In this document: in pieces, positions 1 through 16,224 of the stretch
How positions within the stretch are numbered: the stretch's first letter is position 1
Layout: each line of letters begins with the position of its first letter
Virus record (IMG/VR): IMGVR_UViG_3300025818_000207
Location: 1 to 23,085 of that record
Origin: a virus
Direction: 5' to 3' (one strand)
Length of the DNA stretch: 23,085 nucleotides
Position numbers and translations under genes: made by a program
The notes under the pieces: generated by a model
What the model was told of the DNA's origin: nothing
Database searches by the model: none
Seen by the model: only the letters and a program-made list of their open reading frames with translations

Positions 1-96
1 GGTATTTCTGACCCCGATTACAATCTTTATCCTCATGAAATCATTTTGATTTTCTTTCACAACACTTTGATAAAGCACCAGCCGGATGAACGTTGA
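1..96 (+). CDS. 3' end of an unidentified upstream gene (partial)
   Basis: Frame 1 is open from the first base and reads 31 residues (ending in HQPDER) before TGA at 94-96. The stop lies 11 bases inside the methyltransferase gene that starts at 86, the same kind of short overlap found at most junctions downstream. The peptide (aromatic and charged, no low-complexity run) looks like ordinary protein, but I do not recognise it. The next gene has no clear Shine-Dalgarno, which fits translational coupling to this one. A chance open frame of this length is possible, so confidence is limited. Confidence 0.4.
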   Translation, partial: GISDPDYNLYPHEIILIFFHNTLIKHQPDER

Positions 97-1309
97 AAAC
101 TGGCCTATCAGCAAACCAATTCCCTATTCACGCAATCCAAGGCGCAACGAAGCAGCCATCTCCAAAGTGGCAGGCTCAATCAAGGAATTTGGCTGGCGTC
201 AGCCCATTGTGGTGGACACCGAAGGCGTCATTATCGCAGGACACACCAGACTTTTGGCAGCACAGCACCTGCGACTTCAAGAAGTTCCGGTTCATGTTGC
301 GACTGACCTTTCACCGCAACAAATCAAAGCCTACCGACTGGCCGACAATCGAGTGGCGCAGGAAGCCGAATGGGACAATGACCTGCTCAAACTAGAACTC
401 AGCGAGCTGGAAGAAGAAGGCTTCAGCCTAGACCTGACCGGATTCAGTGAAGACGAACTTGAAGCTTTGCTTGCAGAAGGAACTGAAGACGGATTGACCG
501 ATGAAGACGAAACGCCAGAAGTCGAAGAAGAAGCCATCACGCTAGAAGGCGACCTTTGGATTCTAGGCAAGCACCGATTGCGTTGTGGCGACAGCACAAA
601 CGCAGAACACGTTGCCGATTTACTGCAAAACGTTCAACCGCACCTGATGGTCACAGACCCACCTTATGGGGTCGAGTATGACCCGAAGTGGCGAGCGCAA
701 GCTGGAATTAATAATAACAAACAGAAAATGGGCGAAGTTTTAAACGATGCTAGAGCTGATTGGCGTGATGCTTGGGCGCTGTTTCCAGGTGACGTTGCTT
801 ATGTCTGGCATGATGGCAAAAATGGCAGCACGGTGCAGGAGTCATTGGAGGCAGCCGATTTTTTCATCCGATGTCAAATTGTGTGGGCAAAGGACCGATT
901 TGCATTAAGTCGTGGCGACTATCACTGGCAGCACGAGCCATGCTTGTATGCGGTGCGAAACACAAAAACTGGGCATTGGGCTGGCGACCGAAAGCAGAGT
1001 ACTCTGTGGACCATAAAGACACGGGATGATAATGGTGTGGGACATGGGACACAAAAGCCGGTGGAGTGCATGAGAAAGCCAATTGAAAACAACTCATCAC
1101 CTGGACAAGCGGTTTATGAGCCTTTCAGTGGCAGCGGCACAACCATCATTGCAGCCGAAACAACCAGTCGAGTCTGTTACGCAATGGAACTTCATCCGCC
1201 TTATGTTGACGTTGCCGTCAAGCGTTGGCAGCAATTCACAGGCAAGGAAGCGATTCTGGAAAGTAGCGGCAAAACCTTTGCCGAGGTAGAAGCAGAAAGA
1301 AAAGCATGA
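86..1309 (+). CDS. ParB-domain / DNA (N4-cytosine or N6-adenine) methyltransferase fusion
   Basis: The 407-residue protein has two parts. Residues about 6-130 look like a ParB/Srx-type nuclease-fold domain, with GHTR at 52-55 in the usual place. Residues about 150-400 form an AdoMet-dependent DNA methyltransferase: DPPY at 191-194 (catalytic motif IV), GTQKP at 321-325, and FSGSGT at 347-352 (AdoMet motif I). Motif IV before motif I is the beta-class order, and DPPY fits amino methylation of adenine or cytosine. An acidic linker (about 130-150) joins the halves. No restriction endonuclease is adjacent, so it is probably an orphan phage enzyme protecting or marking phage DNA before packaging; the adjacent terminase genes support that. 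The ATG at 86 has little Shine-Dalgarno and overlaps the end of the upstream frame. The stop overlaps the next start as ATGA. The target sequence cannot be read from here. Confidence 0.9.
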   Translation: MNVENWPISKPIPYSRNPRRNEAAISKVAGSIKEFGWRQPIVVDTEGVIIAGHTRLLAAQHLRLQEVPVHVATDLSPQQIKAYRLADNRVAQEAEWDNDLLKLELSELEEEGFSLDLTGFSEDELEALLAEGTEDGLTDEDETPEVEEEAITLEGDLWILGKHRLRCGDSTNAEHVADLLQNVQPHLMVTDPPYGVEYDPKWRAQAGINNNKQKMGEVLNDARADWRDAWALFPGDVAYVWHDGKNGSTVQESLEAADFFIRCQIVWAKDRFALSRGDYHWQHEPCLYAVRNTKTGHWAGDRKQSTLWTIKTRDDNGVGHGTQKPVECMRKPIENNSSPGQAVYEPFSGSGTTIIAAETTSRVCYAMELHPPYVDVAVKRWQQFTGKEAILESSGKTFAEVEAERKA

Positions 1310-4452: not shown

Positions 4453-5945
4453 TCGCTGAAGCAATGTGGTGGCTCACCGATAGAGTGCATAGACAAGCAC
4501 CAGAGAATCCAAGTCCAAAGCAGAAGAAGCGTCGCTATGATGGCGCGGCTGGTTCAAGATTCTTAGCTGATTTCATTGGCTCCACTACTTCAGCCGATGC
4601 CGAGCTGCAATATAGCCTTCGCAGAATCAGAGACAGAGCCAGAGAACTTTGCCGCAATGACGATTACGCCAGACGGTACCTGCAACTGATGAGTTCTAAC
4701 GTCATTGGTGAGCATGGTTTTCAGCTTCAAAGCCGAGCCAGAAATCTAAACGAGCCGAATGTTGGAGAGTTGGACAGTGCTGGCAATGCCATCATTGAAC
4801 GAGCCTTCAAAAGATGGGGCAAGCGATGCAGTGCGAGCCGCAAGCATAGCTGGCTAGACATTCAGAGGCTAGTGGTTCAAGGACTTGCTAGAGATGGCGA
4901 AATTCTGATTCGCTTCGTCCGAGGCCAGAAATGGACGGATGGGCTAGCGTTGCAGATTCTTGAGCCGGATTATTTGGATGAAGAATATTTCACCACTGAG
5001 CCAAAAGGCCGCAGAGTGGTCATGGGCGTTGAGTTGGACGAGTTTGACGCTCCAGTTGCTTACTACTTGAAATTAGGCCAAGGCCATCCATTCGATACGT
5101 TTGGACAAAGGCGTTCAGACAAACGCACCAGAGTTGACGCTAACGACATTCTGCACATTTACTTACCGGACAGAGCGCAACAGACGAGAGGCGTTTCTTG
5201 GTTTGCTTCAGCAATGACGAGAATGAGAATCCTCTCAGGTTATGAAGAAGCCGAACTGATTGCAGCAAGAACCGCAGCCGCAAAGATGGGGTTTTTGGTT
5301 TCGCCAGACGGTGAAGGCTTCATTGGAGACGAAAGCGCAGACGGCAACCAGATCATGTCAGGCGAACCTGGAAGTATTCAACAGCTTCCGGCTGGAATGA
5401 GCTTTCAAGAGTGGAATCCTAGCCATCCAACCAGTGCTTACGCTGAATTTCACAAAGGCATTTTGCGAGGCATTGCCAGTGGACTTGGCATTTCGTACAC
5501 AAGCCTTTCAAACAACCTTGAAGGCGTCAGCTATTCATCCATTCGGCAAGGCGCACTAGAAGAACGCGACCTCTACAGACAACTGCAAAGTTTCTTGATT
5601 CAGCACCTTTGCGAGCCTGTTGCTCAAGAGTGGCTGAAGATGGCAATGACTTCTGGCTCAATCCCCATTCCGATTACTCGCTTCGACAAATTTTCAAACA
5701 CTCTTGAGTTTCGAGGCAGAGGTTTCAGTTGGGTGGACCCAGCCAAAGAAATCAGAGCCGAAGTCGAAGCAGTTAGAAATGGCTTCAAGTCATTGAATGA
5801 CGTAGCGCGGCAATACGGGCGTGACGTTGAAGAGGTGTTCCAGCAAATGCAAAACGACAAGTTGATGGCGGAACGCTACGGAATCAGCCTAGCCTTTGAG
5901 CCTTTAGGCAGTCCACACGGACCAGTTGAGCCAGAGGTTGAATAG
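4449..5945 (+). CDS. portal protein, lambda gpB family
   Basis: 498 residues, near the family norm (lambda B is 533). The family signature is clear: an N-terminal helical part (YDGAAGSRFLADFIGSTTSA, ADAELQYSLRRIRDRARELCRNDDYARRYL), NVIGEHGFQLQSRA, the wing-region W-D/GE with GLARDGEILIRFV and LQILEPDYLDEEY, then DILHIYLPDRAQQTRGVSWFASAM and the clip and stem-helix region with GISYTSLSNNLEGVSYSSIR. Twelve copies would form the ring at the capsid vertex through which DNA enters and to which the tail joins. The start has a strong Shine-Dalgarno, AGGAGA at 4438-4443, and overlaps the upstream stop by 4 bases. The stop shares a base with the next gene's GTG. Confidence 0.93.
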   Translation: MIAEAMWWLTDRVHRQAPENPSPKQKKRRYDGAAGSRFLADFIGSTTSADAELQYSLRRIRDRARELCRNDDYARRYLQLMSSNVIGEHGFQLQSRARNLNEPNVGELDSAGNAIIERAFKRWGKRCSASRKHSWLDIQRLVVQGLARDGEILIRFVRGQKWTDGLALQILEPDYLDEEYFTTEPKGRRVVMGVELDEFDAPVAYYLKLGQGHPFDTFGQRRSDKRTRVDANDILHIYLPDRAQQTRGVSWFASAMTRMRILSGYEEAELIAARTAAAKMGFLVSPDGEGFIGDESADGNQIMSGEPGSIQQLPAGMSFQEWNPSHPTSAYAEFHKGILRGIASGLGISYTSLSNNLEGVSYSSIRQGALEERDLYRQLQSFLIQHLCEPVAQEWLKMAMTSGSIPIPITRFDKFSNTLEFRGRGFSWVDPAKEIRAEVEAVRNGFKSLNDVARQYGRDVEEVFQQMQNDKLMAERYGISLAFEPLGSPHGPVEPEVE

Positions 5946-8194
5946 TGGCGGAAAACCACAAACCAACCGAGGGCATGATTGCCGAGGCCAATCGTGGCCT
6001 AGAGTGGAGACGAGAATTTGGCAGAGGCGGAACGTCTGTAGGTATCGCTCGCGCCAGAGACATCAGCAACGGCAAGAGCCTGCCACTGGCAACCGTCAAG
6101 AGAATGAAGTCCTTTTTTGCGAGGCATGAGGTTGACAAAAAAGCTGAAGGATTTCGACCAGGAGAGAAAGGTTATCCAAGTAATGGCAGAATCGCTTGGG
6201 CTATGTGGGGTGGAGATGCTGGCAAAAGTTGGAGTGAAAAAATCGTGAATCAAAGCGAGAGAAACATGGATTTAACTAGCATGACCGAAAGGCACGTCAT
6301 TGACGTCGAAGAAACGCAAGACGAGTTCATTGTGGCTTTTGCCAAAGCTCAAGAAGTCGCAGAAGAGCCGGAAGAAAGAGAAGTTGAACAAGTCGAAACA
6401 AGAGACTTACCAGTTCAGACCCAGTACCGAACCGGAAGCGTTCGGATGATGGATGACGAGTCTGACAGAAGAGTGATGATGTCGATTAGTTCAACGAATC
6501 CGGTTGAAAGAGAATTTGGTTACGAGGTGCTTGAACACAATGCCGGAAGTGTAGACATGGAATTCATGTCTTCAGGCAAAGCACCATTGCTTTTAGACCA
6601 TGACGCAAGGCAACAAATTGGAGTTGTAGAACGGGCATACATGGACAAGGACAAACTCAGAGCGCAAGTCCGGTTCTCAAAGAGCGCACTTGCCGAAGAA
6701 GTTTACAGAGACGTAGTTGACGGAATCAGAGGCAATGTTTCGATTGGCTACCAGATTCAAGGCATGACGAAAGACGAGAACGGCTATAAAGACAAGCCTC
6801 TCTACAGAGTCAATATGTTTAAACCGCTCGAAGTGAGCATGGTTTCCATTCCTGCTGACTCCTCTGTGGGGGTAGGCAGATCCAAGCCGGAAATTTCCGG
6901 TAATGACAATTCTGCAATTCAGGAGAAAACAATGAGCGCAGAAGTAGTTCAAGAGCCGGTAAACACACGGCAACCAGAAGACCAACTGAAAGAGTACCGC
7001 AACCAATCCAGCCAGATTCTCGAGCTGGGCAAGCGGCACGATGAATATGATTTAGCGTTTCGCGCACTTCAAGAAGAAAAGTCACTAGCTGAATTCCAGG
7101 CCATGCTTTTAGAGAAGAAGACCAGCAAGCCAATCGACTTCAGCGTTGACGCCACACCAAAGGAAAAGCGCAACTACAGCTTGGTAAGAGCCATTCAAGC
7201 CGCTGACGCAAAGGATTGGAGCAAGGCCGGATTTGAATTGGAAGTCAGCAAGGAACTGGCAAAGAAGCAATCTCGACAACCCAAAGGATTTTTTGTTCCT
7301 GACTTTGGCTGGCAGACTCGAACGGTATCAACCGCAGCAGGCGCAACTTTTGGCGCAGGAAGCAATATTGTGCCGGAAGACTACCGAGGTGACCGCTTTA
7401 TCGACGCTTTGATTTCAACGTCGATTTTGGGACAAGTAGGCGCAACCGTGTTGAATGGTTTGTCTGGAAATGTTGCGATTCCCAAGATTTCAACCAGCAC
7501 CGCAGCGGCTTTCATTGCGGAAGGCGGAAGCGTTGGAAACAGTGAGCCAGACTTTGCTCAAGTCACTATGACCCCAAAGCTTTTGGCGAACAAGGTTGCC
7601 GTGACTCGCGAGTTGATGATTCAGTCTGACCCAAGCGTAGAGCAGTTGATTCGCAATAACATGGTTCGAATCTTCGCAGCCAAAATTGACAACGTTGCTC
7701 TCAAAGGTGGCGGATCAAACGAGCCAACCGGAATCCTTGGAACTTCTGGAATCGGTGACGTTTCCTCTGGCGGAACCTCTGGCAACGCCAATCTGACGTA
7801 TGGCAATGTCGTTGATATTATGACGGAAGTTTCACAGGACAACGCTCTGCTTGGCAATTTGCGATGGGTAACCCATCCGGCAGTAGTTGGGAAACTGATG
7901 CAGACCTTGGTGGCTGCTAGCACAGACAGTCGAATGATTATGTCTGGGCCTGACAGCATGATGGGTTATCCGGTTGTTCAGACAACCCAAGCGCCCTCAA
8001 GTTCGCCTTACTCGCTGATCTTCGGGAACTTTGCTGACTTGTATGTCGGCTTCTTCTCAGCACTCGACGTTCTCGTAGATCCATATGGCAGTGCAGGAAC
8101 AGCCACAACAAATTTGTATTTCTACCAAGACTGCGACATTGCGGTTGCTCACGCTGAAAGCTTCGCGGCAGCGCAGGACGTTACCGTAAGCTGA
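5945..8194 (+). CDS. fusion: small N-terminal phage domain + HK97-type prohead protease + major capsid protein
   Basis: 749 residues in three modules. Residues 8-100 are a compact domain (GLEWRREFGRGGTSVGIARA, VKRMKSFFARHEVDKK, GYPSNGRIAWAMWGGDAG) recognised from other phage head proteins but of unknown function. Residues about 115-310 are a U35-like prohead protease: catalytic His in LLLDHD (H219), Ser in GNVSIGY (S266), and EVSMVSIPADS (E296). Residues 330-400 are a helical, charged scaffold-like delta domain; from about 410 on is the HK97-fold capsid protein (PEDYRGDRFIDALI, AAFIAEGG, KVAVTRELMIQS, NEPTGIL, HPAVV, GYPVV). The protease presumably releases the capsid domain in the prohead. 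Start is GTG at 5945 with AGAGG at 5933-5937. A strong internal ribosome-binding site precedes M330, so a separate capsid product is likely. Confidence 0.92.
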   Translation: MAENHKPTEGMIAEANRGLEWRREFGRGGTSVGIARARDISNGKSLPLATVKRMKSFFARHEVDKKAEGFRPGEKGYPSNGRIAWAMWGGDAGKSWSEKIVNQSERNMDLTSMTERHVIDVEETQDEFIVAFAKAQEVAEEPEEREVEQVETRDLPVQTQYRTGSVRMMDDESDRRVMMSISSTNPVEREFGYEVLEHNAGSVDMEFMSSGKAPLLLDHDARQQIGVVERAYMDKDKLRAQVRFSKSALAEEVYRDVVDGIRGNVSIGYQIQGMTKDENGYKDKPLYRVNMFKPLEVSMVSIPADSSVGVGRSKPEISGNDNSAIQEKTMSAEVVQEPVNTRQPEDQLKEYRNQSSQILELGKRHDEYDLAFRALQEEKSLAEFQAMLLEKKTSKPIDFSVDATPKEKRNYSLVRAIQAADAKDWSKAGFELEVSKELAKKQSRQPKGFFVPDFGWQTRTVSTAAGATFGAGSNIVPEDYRGDRFIDALISTSILGQVGATVLNGLSGNVAIPKISTSTAAAFIAEGGSVGNSEPDFAQVTMTPKLLANKVAVTRELMIQSDPSVEQLIRNNMVRIFAAKIDNVALKGGGSNEPTGILGTSGIGDVSSGGTSGNANLTYGNVVDIMTEVSQDNALLGNLRWVTHPAVVGKLMQTLVAASTDSRMIMSGPDSMMGYPVVQTTQAPSSSPYSLIFGNFADLYVGFFSALDVLVDPYGSAGTATTNLYFYQDCDIAVAHAESFAAAQDVTVS
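6921..6934 (+). promoter_or_regulatory. internal ribosome-binding site and ATG for stand-alone major capsid protein
   Basis: AGGAGA at 6921-6926, five bases of spacer, then ATG at 6932, in frame with the fusion (codon 330). This is one of the best Shine-Dalgarno/ATG pairs in the window and stands at the exact boundary between protease and delta domain. Starting here gives a 420-residue protein with the typical length and layout of an HK97-type capsid precursor. It would allow many capsid subunits per protease-bearing copy. Use of the site is inferred; the sequence itself is plain. Confidence 0.7.
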
Positions 8195-9664: not shown

Positions 9665-10918
9665 ATGGCAATTCCAGATCGTTACTTACGGTTAAGAAGT
9701 TCTCAGCCGTATATTACAACCGAAACCACTGCTGGCAGTTATGTCGCAGTTTCTGCTTCTGACGGATTCACCACAACCGAACCTTTGGCACTGAGCCAGA
9801 CGTTCAACACCTCAGATATTTCTGAAGTCGGCACAAGGCTTTTACAGAACAGAAGTTTTGTGAATTATGCCGAGCGAGCAACCTTTGACATTCCTTTTCT
9901 TGTCAAACCTTCTGGTTCAGCCGGAACTGCACCAGCAGAAGATACTTTGCTGCAAAAGGTGTTTGGGACACTGACCACTTCTGCTGGAGTATCAAACACT
10001 TACAGTTTCAGCCGAGTCAGCGACACGTTTCAGGTTGCGCAACTGGTAGACACCTACAAAATCTATGTGAGCAACGGGACCGTTGTTGAAGGCTTCTCTG
10101 TAGACATTACCAGAGATGGCGTCTTCACCATGTCCGCCAATTGCCGAGCAAGCCGAATCCGCTACTCTGGACCAGTGAACGCGACAGGAACAGACGTCTC
10201 TGTTACCGATTCCTCGCCTGCCACCGTTACCTTAGATCCTGCCTCAAACGCAGTCGCAGCAGATTACTTCTTCGCTGGACAACTGGTTGATATTTACGAT
10301 TCAAGCGACTCGCAGGTGAACACTGGCGGTGCTGCAACCATCAGCTCACCAAGCACAACAGCCGCAACGGTTGGAGTGCAAGCTGCTTCAGGTGATTCTT
10401 TCACAGTCAGCGCGACGGATTATTTAGTACCTCACCTGCCAGCCGCGACTCTCAGCACTTATGAGCCAATCGCCACTTCAGCCGCTCAAGTTTACCTAGC
10501 AGCACAAAACACCGCAGCCGGAAGCTTGATTGCTTCAGCTAACGAGTTCTTGGCAACTGGTTTTAGCATGAGCGTCAGCAAAAACCTTGGTGACCCAGGC
10601 TTGGCAGAGATGACCGGAGACAAGTATCCAGCCGCTGCTTATGTGAGTAACGATATTACCGTGACAGGCTCTTTTGATTTCGTTATGCGACCAGCGCAAG
10701 CCTACCGATTCGAGCAGTTTGCCCGATTGGAGCAAATCGCAATTGGCGTTCAGGTTGGCGACACCGCAGGTTCAATTGTTCAGATTATCATTCCATCCGC
10801 TCGCGTTTCCATTTCTGGAACTGAGCAGGACGGAGCCGCAGCGGCTTCAGTGGACTTTGCCTTGACTCAAGGCTCTTCTGCTACGGACGCAGCCGCATTT
10901 TCACTCATTTATAAGTAA
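9665..10918 (+). CDS. major tail tube protein
   Basis: 417 residues. Preceded by the strong Shine-Dalgarno TAAGGAGA at 9653-9660, fitting high expression. The protein is beta-rich, Thr/Ser/Ala-rich and without transmembrane parts. It begins with a tail-tube-like stretch (ALSQTFNTSDISEVGTRLLQ, then NRSFVNYAERATFDIPFLV) and ends with strands such as ITVTGSFDFVMRP, the FEQFARLE helix and IIIPSARVSISG. It is longer than lambda gpV (246), so residues about 165-260 (VSVTDSSPATVTLDPASNAV onward) may be an added surface domain. The place before the G/GT chaperones and tape measure supports the role. No sheath protein is found, so the tail is non-contractile. Confidence 0.85.
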   Translation: MAIPDRYLRLRSSQPYITTETTAGSYVAVSASDGFTTTEPLALSQTFNTSDISEVGTRLLQNRSFVNYAERATFDIPFLVKPSGSAGTAPAEDTLLQKVFGTLTTSAGVSNTYSFSRVSDTFQVAQLVDTYKIYVSNGTVVEGFSVDITRDGVFTMSANCRASRIRYSGPVNATGTDVSVTDSSPATVTLDPASNAVAADYFFAGQLVDIYDSSDSQVNTGGAATISSPSTTAATVGVQAASGDSFTVSATDYLVPHLPAATLSTYEPIATSAAQVYLAAQNTAAGSLIASANEFLATGFSMSVSKNLGDPGLAEMTGDKYPAAAYVSNDITVTGSFDFVMRPAQAYRFEQFARLEQIAIGVQVGDTAGSIVQIIIPSARVSISGTEQDGAAAASVDFALTQGSSATDAAAFSLIYK

Positions 10919-10924
10919 TAATTC

Positions 10925-11281
10925 ATGCCATCTATTTTTGATGTCCAGCGAGCAAACGAAGTAACAATCGACTTCAATGACGCAGACCTGGACCTAGAAG
11001 CAACCTTTCAATGCGTTTTACCTCACCAAAAGCTTTTGACTGAGGCTCTGAACGCAGCCACGAAGACACAGAAAGGCAAGCAAACGATTGATTCTCTTAT
11101 GTTTGCTCGAAAGCTTTTTGTGCCTTGTGTGACCTCCTGGTCATTCGACGAAGAGTGCAGTGTTGAGAACAAAAGTCTGTTTGTTGGAGAAGACGCTGCG
11201 CTCAATAAAATGGCAACGCATGTTAGTTTGAAGCTGATGCGTTTGGCCCAGGCGAAAGTCGACGACGAAGAGGGAAATTAA
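10925..11281 (+). CDS. tail assembly chaperone, G-type (zero-frame product)
   Basis: 118 residues, acidic start and helical (LPHQKLLTEALNAATKTQKG, DSLMFARKLFVPCVTSW). It sits between the major tail protein and the tape measure, the place of lambda G. Normal termination is at TAA 11279-11281, but the last codons GAG GGA AAT contain the slippery heptamer GGGAAAT, so a share of ribosomes should go on in the -1 frame and make the longer GT-like product. In lambda, gpG and gpGT bind the tape measure and recruit tail tube subunits; neither stays in the virion. No good Shine-Dalgarno is visible, so translation may be coupled to the major tail gene six bases upstream. Confidence 0.85.
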   Translation: MPSIFDVQRANEVTIDFNDADLDLEATFQCVLPHQKLLTEALNAATKTQKGKQTIDSLMFARKLFVPCVTSWSFDEECSVENKSLFVGEDAALNKMATHVSLKLMRLAQAKVDDEEGN

Positions 11282-11328
11282 AAAGTTACCTAGATCTGGT
11301 TCTTGAAAAAGCAACTTATCTAGGTGAC
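11272..11328 (+). promoter_or_regulatory. programmed -1 ribosomal frameshift signal (slippery heptamer + stem-loop)
   Basis: Zero-frame reading across the site is GAG GGA AAT TAA. The heptamer G GGA AAT (11272-11278) is the X XXY YYZ form and differs only in its last base from lambda's GGGAAAG. After a 6-base spacer (11279-11284) come GTTACCTAGAT (11285-11295) and ATCTAGGTGAC (11318-11328), an 11-bp stem with one G-U pair and a 22-base loop. The -1 frame is then open to 11727. Heptamer, spacer and stem all match the standard layout. Confidence 0.88.
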
Positions 11329-11727
11329 TCGCAAGAGCATGGCATTCAGGAAGGCGACCGATACCAAGCGGTTTGGTGTTGCAAATCAGCGGACAATGTC
11401 TGGCAGGAAGACGAAGAGCCGCCTTGTGCAGTTTGTCCAAACAATTTGACGCTGACCGAGAGAAACTTGGCAGCGGTTCAGGCGTTCAGAGACTTGGACA
11501 CAACCGGACGAGACTTGGGTTTTGACATTGGTTTTCTGCGCGAAGAAGCAATTGATTGCTACTTGAGAAGAGCAGAAATCAATACCGTTGAAGTCTACAC
11601 CGCACTGGTGACGATAGACAGAGAAGTCACTAGCCACAGAAAGAAAGAGAACGAGCGCAAACGAGACTTGCAAAAGAAGAAGTCTAGCACCGCTCGACCT
11701 ACCCCAAAGCCTAGAAGAAAACGATAA
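11278..11727 (+). CDS. tail assembly chaperone, T-type extension (made as GT-like -1 frameshift fusion)
   Basis: After a -1 shift at GGGAAAT, reading resumes at TTA 11278-11280 and runs 149 codons to TAA 11725-11727. The fusion would be 267 residues (118 + 149). There is no ATG with a ribosome-binding site; the first start-like codon is a TTG at 11446, which would cut away a conserved-looking part with Cys residues (VWCCKSADNVW, then PPCAVCP). The T part is helical later on (LTERNLAAVQAFRDLD, DIGFLREEAIDCYLRR) and ends in a strongly basic tail (KKKSS...PRRKR). The next base after the stop is the tape-measure ATG, as for lambda T and H. Confidence 0.85.
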   Translation, partial: LKSYLDLVLEKATYLGDSQEHGIQEGDRYQAVWCCKSADNVWQEDEEPPCAVCPNNLTLTERNLAAVQAFRDLDTTGRDLGFDIGFLREEAIDCYLRRAEINTVEVYTALVTIDREVTSHRKKENERKRDLQKKKSSTARPTPKPRRKR

Positions 11728-14700
11728 ATGGCAAACGCAGCCTCTACCATTGAAATCGAACTAGAGATACGCGACGCCATTAACCGTTTGGGAAAGCTCG
11801 AAGGCGAACTCAAAAAGTCTTCAAGTGCAATGGACCGAGTGGCGAACTCAACCAGAAAAATGGAATCGGCTTTCAAGTCTGCGAAGAATGCCGCTTCTGC
11901 TTTGGTTGCTGCGATCAGTGTTCAGCAAATCGCACAAGCCGCGGACACCTTTACCAATTTTGCCAACCAAATCCGCATTGCAACGAATTCAGCCGCTGAA
12001 GCCGCAGCGGTTCAGAAAGAGTTGTACCGAGTCTCACAGACTACCGGAACCGCAATTGAGGACACCACCAAGCTTTACGCTCGCCTTCGTGTTGCTGCTG
12101 ACCAGTTAGGTTCCAGCCAAGCCGAAACTATCCGCATTACCGAAATCGTTGCCAAATCTTTAGCCGCAGCCGGAACCAGTAGCACAGAGGCTTCTGGGGC
12201 ATTGCTGCAACTCGCGCAAGCCTTGAATTCGCCAAAGGTTCAGGCCGAAGAGTTCAATTCGTTGATTGACGGAATGCCCAATCTGCTCAAGGAAGTAGAG
12301 AAGCAACTTGGACTTACGGCTGGAAGTCTGAAGAAGTTTGTGACGGATGGCAACCTAACGAATCAGCTATTTAAAGACGCAATCCTTGGGTCTGCTGAAG
12401 CCATTAACGAACAGTTTGGCGCGGCACAAGATACGATTGCGACCTCGCTGACCCGAATCAGCAATAGCTTTACGTTACTGATTGGCAAGGTGGAAGAATC
12501 AACCGGAATTTTCAGCGGAACCGCAAAGGTTATGACAGACCTAGCTGGTGAATTTGACAAGTCTGACGGGATCGTTCGAGACTTTGCTGAAGGTATCAAA
12601 ATTCTTGGAATTGCTTTTGACAAGCTCAAGCAGCTTGCGATCAATCTGACCAAGCCATTGCGAGACGCATTCAGCAGTTTCACAGGTGGCGAGTCTAACC
12701 CAATCGTCACCACACTCAACTACATTCAAGCTGGCTTTGGCTTTCTTTCGGTTGCTGCTCAATACGAAACGCAAAACGCAGCACTTAATATTGAACGCCT
12801 CACTCTACACGTTCGAGATTTCTTCATTGGCATGATTGCTAATATGTTCAGCTTTTTTGAAAAGGTGGACAACTTCTTCATCAATCAAATCAACAAAATC
12901 ATTGGCTATTACAACAGTGCCGCAAATGCGATTGGCATGGACGGAGATGTTGCGCCTATTGCGACTTCAACCGAAGCGCAAGAGTCAGCTCTCAAATTTG
13001 AGAGAGATTCAGCTTTTGAACTAGCTGAAAATTACCGGAAAAGTGCAGATTTATGGACGCAATACAAGGCAGCACTTGAAGGCGTAGCTGGAGAATTCAG
13101 AGGACTTCAGAATCAGATTGATTCTGGGACACTAATCAAGACTGAAGAGCAACTGGGCAATGTAAACCTTGAAGCTGCAAATGCCGCCTCATCAGTTGAG
13201 AAGCTGAAAGAAAAAATCGAAGAAGTCAAAGAGATTGAATACACCGATTTCACAGGCAAGCTTTCACAGGAACAACAAGACCGATTCACAGAAGCACTGG
13301 AAGAAGAGTTCCGAATTCGCAGAGAAATGGGACAACTGACCGAAGAGCAGCAAGGTCGTTTTACGCAAGGACTAGAAGAAGAGTTTCGACGAGTCACAGA
13401 AATCAACGCTTTGACAGAAGACAAAAATAGACTTTACGAAGAAAGCCTTTTCCCGAAAGCCAGAGAGTTGACATACCTCGAAGAAGTCACTGCTGAATTG
13501 AAAACGCAGCTTTTACTTCAGGGACAACTGAACGAAGAAGCAGAAAGAACCGCAGGAGCCATTGTTTCCGGTGTTTCTGGCGCAGGTCCAAACGCTAGTC
13601 GAGCCATGTTCATCGCTCAATCGAAATCACCAGAGGAAGTCGCTGCAAAACTAATCTTGAGCAACGAAAAGGTTGCCGCTTCGATTGAAGAATACTTCAC
13701 CATTCTCTTCGACACACTTGACCCATTCATTGACATTCTTGGCGATTTGCAGAGCGCGATCAATCGGTTGGTGAAGGCCTTGATTGAAGGCGTAGGTAAT
13801 GCGATCGAACGAAACCTCGACGCAATCGGGTTAGGCCCAAACAGTTATTATGGAGGTGGCGGATTCACCAGAGACATTGAGGCGCTTGGAGGTGCGGCTG
13901 GTGGAGGCAGTAGACCAACAAATGCCGAGCAAGCGGTGTTGGCTGCAATTTCTAGCCTAGACTCATTGACTTCTGAGAGATCCGCAGTTGTTCAAAATTT
14001 AATCGAAACCGCTGAAGCTTCAGGAGATATTCAGGCAACCATCATTGCATTTAGGGATTCCGTTGACGCATTAATTAACCAAATCGGTGTAAATTATGCG
14101 GCAACCTATGGAGACTCACCAGACTTTATGGAGTCTTTTGCAAATGCGGCTCAAATGCTTGAAAACATGATTCAGCGAGGCACCTATAGCAGCTATCAAG
14201 ACTTTGTTGAAAATTATAATCCCATCATGACAGGTCCACAAGGAAGTGAATCTCTTCGTGAAGACTCCGCAATTCTGCTTGCAGTAGCAAATGCTGAAAT
14301 AGCAATTGAGGAATTAGTTGGTGGGATTGCTGGATCATCAACTGATATTTCTGAAGGATTTGAAGCAGTTTCTGACAAAATCTTTGAAACCGCAGAAGAG
14401 CAGATAAGATCCATTCAGTTTCAACAGTTGAGTGCAGAAGAACAAATTGAGACTCTGCATGAACAAGCAATGGCTGCACTGGAAAGTCAGAAGGCTTTAC
14501 TTTCCTTAATTGAAAGTGAAGAGCGTCGAGCAGAATTACTAGGGCAAATTGAAGCCGCTGAAGGAAAACAACTTGAACTCTACAATCTACAGATCAGCGA
14601 GCTGCAAAAACTCAACGAAGAACGCGAGCGAGAAGCCAATCTGCTTGCTTTGCAAAACATTGAATCTGGGTTGCAAGCACTGCTTCGAGATTTTGAAAGA

Positions 14701-16224
14701 ACGATTGAAAACATCGCTGATCTGGTGCAAGGATTATTCGATCAAGTCAACGAGTTGCTTTTCAGTGATTTCAATCTTGCCTCACCACAAGAGACTTTTT
14801 CTCTTGCACAAGACACTTACGAAAGCTTGCTGGAAAATGCTTTTGACCAGGACGCAACTGAAGACGATATAAAAGCACTTCAAGCCTTCGTCAACGAATA
14901 CCTCACCGCAGCCAGAAACGTTTTTAAGTCCTCCACAGCCTTTACAACCATTTTTGAAGGTGTTCTGAGTGACTTGGCGCTGCTTGGTACTCAGTACGGA
15001 TTTAACGCACCGATTGCCGCAGCTAGCTTACTTAGTTCAGGCGCAGAGGATTTGCTAGGTGACTTACCAGAAGAATTGCAAACCGCAGTCTCTGATTTAA
15101 TCTCTGGAATCAACCTAGCCACACTTGCCTTTGCTCAACAGCAGGTTGAATTCCTGACAACCGTCTACCAAATTCCCATTGAACTGAAAGATGGCAATTT
15201 CATTGTTGACACTTCAGGAGTCAATAAGCCTATCAGCCTCAACAGCGGCAACTTCAGTTTGGATTCCTCACGGTTGAATCTTTCTCTGCTGATGTCCACG
15301 AGCATGTTCAGCGTGAACACTTCTGGACTGAATTTTGGGACAATCACACCAACAGCGAACGCTGGCAGACCTCACTTGGGGACAATCACTCCAACCGTAA
15401 ATCTCAATACTTCATCTGTGACAAGTTCATTCAATTCTTTCAGTGCAGCAATTAACAACGCAATCACCAGTCTAGTTCAATCAATTAACACAGCAACCAC
15501 AACGATTAGCACCGGATCAAGTGGAGGAGGTGGTTCTTCTGTTAGTTATCCACCATTAGATTTGAGTTTCACAAACACACTTGGCCCTGGCTCCTTTTAT
15601 GGAAGCTATCCAAGACTTGATAATTATTCATTGAATTCGCTTCTCGGTGAATTACAACGGCAATTTCAAACAGGAACACATGGGTTGGGTCAAAATATAG
15701 CGAATCGAACGGATCTGACAAAATTTTTCATTGCCAAACCCACCGACAGCAGACAAACGGGATTTTTTATTGTTTCAAATGAAGCAGATTTATCAAACGC
15801 GCAGATTTACGCCAGATTATTTGGTGCAAGATACCCGTATCAAAACAGTGGATACCAATTTGACGAAATCGCTAATTTTTCATTCAGAGATGGCGGATTG
15901 GTCCCTGACCCAATGGACACCATTCCAGCCATGCTGAGTCCTGGCGAATACATTCTATCCCCAGAAACCGTCCGCAGATATGGCGTCAGCAACCTCAACC
16001 GCTTGAACTCTGGCGACACCGCAGCAATCAACGCAACCTCAGACCCAGAGGTGAAAAGATTACTGGCTGAATTGATTGTGGCAGTTCGCGAGAATGACAC
16101 CGAAGTAAATGTTTATACGGATATGGCTGGCCAGACCAAGGCTGGTATTGAAGAGTTCAGAAGCGAACTGAGAGAAAGAACCAGACGGCAAGGCGACAAG
16201 TTTCTTCCTGCTAGGTACATCTGA
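11728..16224 (+). CDS. tail tape measure protein
   Basis: 1498 residues, the longest gene. Residues about 1-90 are a coiled coil (EIRDAINRLGKLEGELKKSS) and 90-240 the conserved tape-measure domain (TNFANQIRIATNSAAEAAAV, LYARLRVAADQLG, SLAAAGTSSTEASGALLQLA, LIDGMPNLLKEVEKQLG). Three 25-residue repeats lie at 512-586. Gly-rich linkers occur near residues 708-730 and 1264-1270. The C-terminal part has FRDGGLVPDPMDTIPAMLSP and GEYILSPETVRRYGV, the usual tape-measure ending. It sets tail length and is ejected with the DNA; at about 0.15 nm per residue a tail near 220 nm is expected (rule of thumb). ATG follows the GT stop with no gap; the stop shares its last base with the next ATG. No transglycosylase or peptidase motif was noticed. 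Confidence 0.93.
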   Translation: MANAASTIEIELEIRDAINRLGKLEGELKKSSSAMDRVANSTRKMESAFKSAKNAASALVAAISVQQIAQAADTFTNFANQIRIATNSAAEAAAVQKELYRVSQTTGTAIEDTTKLYARLRVAADQLGSSQAETIRITEIVAKSLAAAGTSSTEASGALLQLAQALNSPKVQAEEFNSLIDGMPNLLKEVEKQLGLTAGSLKKFVTDGNLTNQLFKDAILGSAEAINEQFGAAQDTIATSLTRISNSFTLLIGKVEESTGIFSGTAKVMTDLAGEFDKSDGIVRDFAEGIKILGIAFDKLKQLAINLTKPLRDAFSSFTGGESNPIVTTLNYIQAGFGFLSVAAQYETQNAALNIERLTLHVRDFFIGMIANMFSFFEKVDNFFINQINKIIGYYNSAANAIGMDGDVAPIATSTEAQESALKFERDSAFELAENYRKSADLWTQYKAALEGVAGEFRGLQNQIDSGTLIKTEEQLGNVNLEAANAASSVEKLKEKIEEVKEIEYTDFTGKLSQEQQDRFTEALEEEFRIRREMGQLTEEQQGRFTQGLEEEFRRVTEINALTEDKNRLYEESLFPKARELTYLEEVTAELKTQLLLQGQLNEEAERTAGAIVSGVSGAGPNASRAMFIAQSKSPEEVAAKLILSNEKVAASIEEYFTILFDTLDPFIDILGDLQSAINRLVKALIEGVGNAIERNLDAIGLGPNSYYGGGGFTRDIEALGGAAGGGSRPTNAEQAVLAAISSLDSLTSERSAVVQNLIETAEASGDIQATIIAFRDSVDALINQIGVNYAATYGDSPDFMESFANAAQMLENMIQRGTYSSYQDFVENYNPIMTGPQGSESLREDSAILLAVANAEIAIEELVGGIAGSSTDISEGFEAVSDKIFETAEEQIRSIQFQQLSAEEQIETLHEQAMAALESQKALLSLIESEERRAELLGQIEAAEGKQLELYNLQISELQKLNEEREREANLLALQNIESGLQALLRDFERTIENIADLVQGLFDQVNELLFSDFNLASPQETFSLAQDTYESLLENAFDQDATEDDIKALQAFVNEYLTAARNVFKSSTAFTTIFEGVLSDLALLGTQYGFNAPIAAASLLSSGAEDLLGDLPEELQTAVSDLISGINLATLAFAQQQVEFLTTVYQIPIELKDGNFIVDTSGVNKPISLNSGNFSLDSSRLNLSLLMSTSMFSVNTSGLNFGTITPTANAGRPHLGTITPTVNLNTSSVTSSFNSFSAAINNAITSLVQSINTATTTISTGSSGGGGSSVSYPPLDLSFTNTLGPGSFYGSYPRLDNYSLNSLLGELQRQFQTGTHGLGQNIANRTDLTKFFIAKPTDSRQTGFFIVSNEADLSNAQIYARLFGARYPYQNSGYQFDEIANFSFRDGGLVPDPMDTIPAMLSPGEYILSPETVRRYGVSNLNRLNSGDTAAINATSDPEVKRLLAELIVAVRENDTEVNVYTDMAGQTKAGIEEFRSELRERTRRQGDKFLPARYI
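13261..13485 (+). repeat. three tandem 25-residue repeats in the tape measure
   Basis: 13261-13335 encodes LSQEQQDRFTEALEEEFRIR plus REMGQ; 13336-13410 encodes LTEEQQGRFTQGLEEEFRRV plus TEINA; 13411-13485 starts LTEDKNRLYEESLF and is degenerate. The first two share about 14 of 25 residues, in the pattern L-(S/T)-x-E-Q-Q-x-R-F-T-x-x-L-E-E-E-F-R. They are diverged at DNA level, so the duplication is not recent. Helical repeats of this kind could change tail length in steps. Confidence 0.7.

Follow-up and report, generated by a model that had tools for sequence, protein, structure and literature searches.

The question raised by this locus is how the second of two overlapping reading frames, T, which lies between a short gene, G, and the tape measure gene of a virus, is translated. 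The window, i.e., the whole stretch of 23,085 nucleotides that was analysed (IMG/VR virus record IMGVR_UViG_3300025818_000207), has a siphophage-like gene order: terminase, portal, a protease-capsid fusion, head-tail attachment protein and tail terminator are followed by a 417-residue protein in the tail-tube position, G, T and a tape measure protein of 1,498 residues, with an integrase on the opposite strand. The G/GT class of frameshifts has been known in phage lambda since 1993 and is widely conserved. In the window, a programmed -1 ribosomal frameshift very probably lets a single gene encode two tail-assembly chaperones, G and G-T. The features that bear on this reading are the following:

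10925-11281, plus strand: G frame, 118 aa, the predicted short tail-assembly chaperone product (open reading frame, conservation in viral contigs, weak PHROG matches)
11267-11281, plus strand: invariant 15-nt block GAAGAGGGAAATTAA
11272-11278, plus strand: slippery heptamer G GGA AAT, in phase and invariant among relatives
11279-11281, plus strand: 0-frame stop codon TAA adjoining the heptamer, with a like arrangement in five remote relatives
11278-11727, plus strand: T frame (-1), 149 codons and a stop, predicted to be made only as a 267-aa G-T fusion
11284-11295, plus strand: 5' arm of the putative stimulatory stem, after a spacer of 5-6 nt
11298-11316, plus strand: inner helix nested in the loop, pairing 11298-11304 with 11309-11316 and conserved less well
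11318-11329, plus strand: 3' arm of the putative stimulatory stem
11728-16224, plus strand: tape measure protein, 1,498 aa, directly 3' of T (PF20155, phrog_339)

The 3' end of G reads GAG GGA AAT TAA, and the heptamer, phased as X XXY YYZ, extends over the last two sense codons of G, exactly where an earlier reading of this DNA, made from the sequence alone, had placed a GGGAAAT a few codons before the first frame ends. That sequence-only reading had also described the -1 frame as open for 149 codons up to the tape-measure ATG, and T does run from 11278 to a TAA at 11725-11727, immediately 5' of the ATG at 11728; adding 118 and 149 residues gives the fusion near 267 residues that it had predicted. 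Over the junction, the predicted fusion sequence is ...DDEEGN-LKSYLDLVLEK..., and the junction peptide of the predicted G-T is ...DDEEGNLKSYLDLVLEK. Most ribosomes would read GGA-AAT-TAA and terminate to release the 118-residue G, while a minority, aided by the downstream stem-loop, would shift from G GGA AAT by one base backwards to GGG AAA and continue through TTA AAA AGT... for 149 codons to produce the 267-residue G-T. Taken singly, such a heptamer is only moderately surprising, since an in-phase XXXYYYZ occurs within the 45-nt overlap in 5.5% of codon-order shuffles of G and one abutting the stop in 0.5%; chance is excluded because the heptamer is conserved across relatives.

Viral contigs scanned with T and G provided 42 full junctions, which together with the window amount to 31 distinct sequences. 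While the sequence-only reading had regarded the lack of a conserved heptamer in homologues as evidence against frameshifting, the opposite was found: all 15 bases of the block that contains it are invariant in 31/31 distinct junctions, with ~1,500-1,900 inferred changes elsewhere across the 747 bases of the region. This block is the longest invariant run of the region, the runner-up measuring 8 or 11 nt according to which sequences are included. Part of this conservation reflects shared descent, as the close relatives form one narrow lineage in which T is 87-100% identical across its aligned part. In four contigs (L036, L038, L039 and L040), a divergent G (~52% identical, 116 aa) precedes the usual T, with the same 15-nt junction between them; by sequence comparison, this suggests an exchange of modules whose breakpoint falls at the frameshift site or immediately before it. 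These four contigs are not counted as independent because recombination just upstream could explain them; their G rows were misaligned in one of the change counts, and the count was repeated without them. In two further contigs (L042 and L043, ~2440-2620), the tape measure apparently starts at a GTG that overlaps the 3' end of T, which is slightly longer there, and the N-terminal sequence of the tape measure is divergent.

Downstream of the heptamer, the 6-base spacer and 11-bp stem with one G-U pair and a 22-base loop noted earlier are present as described: the core stem pairs 11285-11295 with 11318-11328 (11 bp, one U-G pair) around a 22-nt loop that is able to pair further within itself, and an added A-U pair (11284/11329) extends the stem to 12 bp with a spacer of 5 nt. 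A spacer of 5-9 nt between the slippery site and the 3' structure is the range used in most studies (PMC5009743). The minimum free energy of the stem is -21.8 kcal/mol compared with -9.05 +/- 2.71 for shuffled sequences (z = -4.70; 0/200 equally stable), and its core was recovered unprompted by RNAalifold from the alignment of relatives. That the heptamer alone drives the shift, the stem being no stimulator and its conservation having some other cause or reflecting only the coding constraint on T, is unlikely, even though some tailed-phage shifts are said to operate without stimulatory signals (PMC5009743) and no unusually stable hairpin was found 3' of the heptamer in the remote relatives CRP-406, CRP-811 and Tlacuache. 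In the window's own lineage, the stem is conserved and is preserved by double changes: 96.8% of the cells at its pairs are paired in the alignment of relatives, four pairs carry double changes, and the covariation score is 0.199 versus 0.142 for shuffles, which do not control for relatedness among the sequences (0/500 reach 0.199), and <=0.064 for versions of the stem slid along the alignment. The lineage is narrow, and two or three events may account for all these double changes. In L036, L039 and L042, the 3' arm carries amino acid replacements (CTA to TCA, Leu to Ser; GGT to GAT, Gly to Asp) for which synonymous substitutions in the 5' arm (CTA to CTG, TAC to TAT) compensate, so that pairing is kept while the protein changes. 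Third-position changes are depressed in the stem arms, where their mean is 1.1-1.4 compared with 3.9-4.3 for T as a whole and 5.1-5.3 for the loop, and the value at the real stem is the lowest of 117 placements of identical geometry. Across the 31 distinct junctions, heptamer and stem are kept and third positions vary outside the arms, the pattern for which a homologue alignment had been proposed. The stem is best regarded as a putative stimulator situated 5-6 nt 3' of the heptamer, within the usual range of 5-9 nt, and kept by compensating changes that stem from few independent events.

It is very unlikely that T is instead a separate gene with its own start, whether TTG 11446 or a non-standard start after the G stop, reached by coupling or reinitiation. 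The TTG exists in the window and at the same place in 15/31 distinct junctions, but it is not conserved in the others and no Shine-Dalgarno sequence is visible at it. No start codon common to the T frames was found among the 31 distinct junctions, the independent start that the sequence-only reading had set against its own proposal being absent there: the first ATG, GTG or TTG of the frame lies at five different offsets, and in 14/31 junctions it is at least 222 nt into T, the first 70 codons of these 14 containing none. Read in the 5' direction from the heptamer, the -1 frame runs into a stop after 3, 6 or 9 nt in 30/31 junctions, the sole exception being the window's own sequence type, in which it is open for 45 nt. 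Between 11282 and 11445, i.e., 5' of the TTG, 88, 37 and 268 changes fall at codon positions 1, 2 and 3 of the -1 frame, a pattern indicating that this frame is translated and constrained upstream of any TTG. A separate start would also leave the invariant heptamer unexplained. Polymerase slippage usually requires runs longer than those present at this site. That the frames are joined by transcriptional rather than ribosomal slippage is extremely unlikely, although AAATTAAAAAG is A-rich: the frame change is needed before TAA 11279-11281, where the longest single-base run is three, and the A5 run at 11280-11284 overlaps the stop, so that insertion of an A leaves TAA in frame. A sequencing error was likewise rejected, since over 40 contigs have the same junction.

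With a -1 ribosomal frameshift as the preferred reading, the window adds a further example to the lambda G/GT class, whose mechanism is itself long known. In lambda, -1 frameshifting takes place at a low level and yields G and GT in a molar ratio of ~30:1, on which tail assembly crucially depends (PMC5009743); the slippery site is G_GGA_AAG (PMC7618472). The two systems share overlapping frames just 5' of the tape measure gene, the phase of the heptamer, the -1 extension and six of the seven heptamer bases, the single-base difference having been pointed out beforehand; in contrast, homology between the lambda and window G/T proteins was not detected, the only matches being weak ones to PHROG families. 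By analogy with lambda, G would bind along the length of the tape measure protein and tail-tube subunits would be brought in by the T portion of G-T, and the G:G-T ratio would for that reason matter for tail assembly.

The departures from the lambda class are mild and consist of the covarying 3' stem and the A-site codon, which is AAT (Asn) in the window versus AAG (Lys) in lambda and is of a type inefficient in E. coli. An Asn codon also occupies the A site in the tail chaperone heptamers of the Caulobacter phages phiCbK (AAAAAAC) and Colossus (GGGAAAC) (PMC3556154) and of the haloarchaeal virus HCTV-1 (G_GGA_AAC) (PMC5009743); those of Colossus and HCTV-1 are one base off that of the window, with a final C for T. 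In E. coli, the best motifs end in AAG, whereas A_AA.A_AA.C and G_GG.A_AA.C have low efficiency, yet are used by IS elements (PMC4066793). As X_XXA_AAY is inefficient in E. coli, which may not be the host, the shift rate may be low. Neither a rate for G_GGA_AAU nor a paper connecting GGGAAAT with tail-assembly frameshifting was found in the literature text searched, a full-text search that is far from complete. A more elaborate proposal, itself unlikely, is that the Asn codon and the adjoining stop are integral to the mechanism: the shift would take place in part with the stop codon already waiting in the A site, which would couple frameshifting to termination, and the stem would compensate for the weak heptamer. 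Codon and stop at the site are AAT TAA in the window and AAC TAA or AAC TGA in roseophages and cyanophages.

Judged by the portal, the nearest annotated phages are CRP-group roseophages (46-51% identity) and cyanophage S-LBS1 (37%), and the tail terminator connects the window to the roseophages and to S-CBS3. In CRP-406, CRP-811, CRP-831, S-LBS1 and S-CBS3, the gene preceding the tape measure ends A AAA AAC followed by TAA or TGA, and the -1 frame is open toward the tape-measure gene. These phages are like the window in being portal and/or tail-terminator relatives with an in-phase heptamer abutting the stop and an open -1 frame, but the heptamer there is AAAAAAC and homology to G or T is not detectable; that the same architecture occurs with a different heptamer and with dissimilar proteins speaks for a mechanism and not for one sequence. 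Among the remote relatives, a clearly unusual post-heptamer stem is found in S-LBS1 only (z -5.6). CRP-406, CRP-811 and CRP-831 each show, between the gene in the chaperone position and that of the tape measure, an unannotated gap of ~138 bp (L201, 9521-9660; L202, 10480-10619; L203, 10654-10793) that holds the open -1 frame reached from the in-phase AAAAAAC, with no T annotated; in the S-LBS1 and S-CBS3 records, the -1 frame is annotated as short pieces only. The roseophage paper mentions tail assembly chaperones and does not mention frameshifting.

The G/GT-like label applied by the sequence-only reading is based on the position of the site just 5' of the tape-measure gene, on the architecture of the signal and on protein matches that are weak. 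The tape measure itself matches PF20155 TMP_3 (E 1.2e-54) and phrog_339 (E 3.6e-60), and a search with its N-terminus returned six remote prophage-like matches. For G and T, the chaperone-family matches are phrog_3817, tail chaperonin (E 0.0055), and phrog_15027, tail assembly chaperone (E 0.073), both weak. T had no tblastn match in annotated phages, none was found in GTDB genomes and a profile scan gave nothing beyond the close lineage, while G had a single weak match among annotated phages, gp13 of Serratia phage Tlacuache. This remote G relative (L206, 2806-3497) has an in-phase AAAGGGT in the G-T overlap and an open -1 frame, and the annotation makes the second frame a gene of its own, gp14. 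The AlphaFold models of G and T (pLDDT 53 and 45) were too poor for a fold search, and no Rfam family was found in the window at the gathering threshold.

The comparative case is unusually clean; the kind of system is ordinary. For annotation, it brings a correction: in the window, as had been calculated, calling genes by start codons would miss 56 codons of T or begin it at TTG 11446, and such callers generally lose at least 56 T codons or the whole of T, the same gap being exposed in the isolated roseophages CRP-406, CRP-811 and CRP-831. The relatives also constitute a natural series of junctions, with a fixed heptamer, a covarying stem, an Asn slip codon and an abutting stop, that is useful for measuring how stem and stop codon tune weak bacterial slip sites.

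Elsewhere in the window, the 417-aa protein in the tail-tube position (9665-10918, plus strand) is well conserved in related viral contigs; it matched neither PHROG nor Pfam, and tblastn found nothing like it in annotated phages. A prohead protease (Peptidase_S78) and an HK97-type major capsid protein are fused in a 749-aa open reading frame (5945-8194, plus strand), and, 5' of the terminase genes, a ParB-like N-terminal domain is fused to an N6/N4 DNA methylase (86-1309, plus strand).
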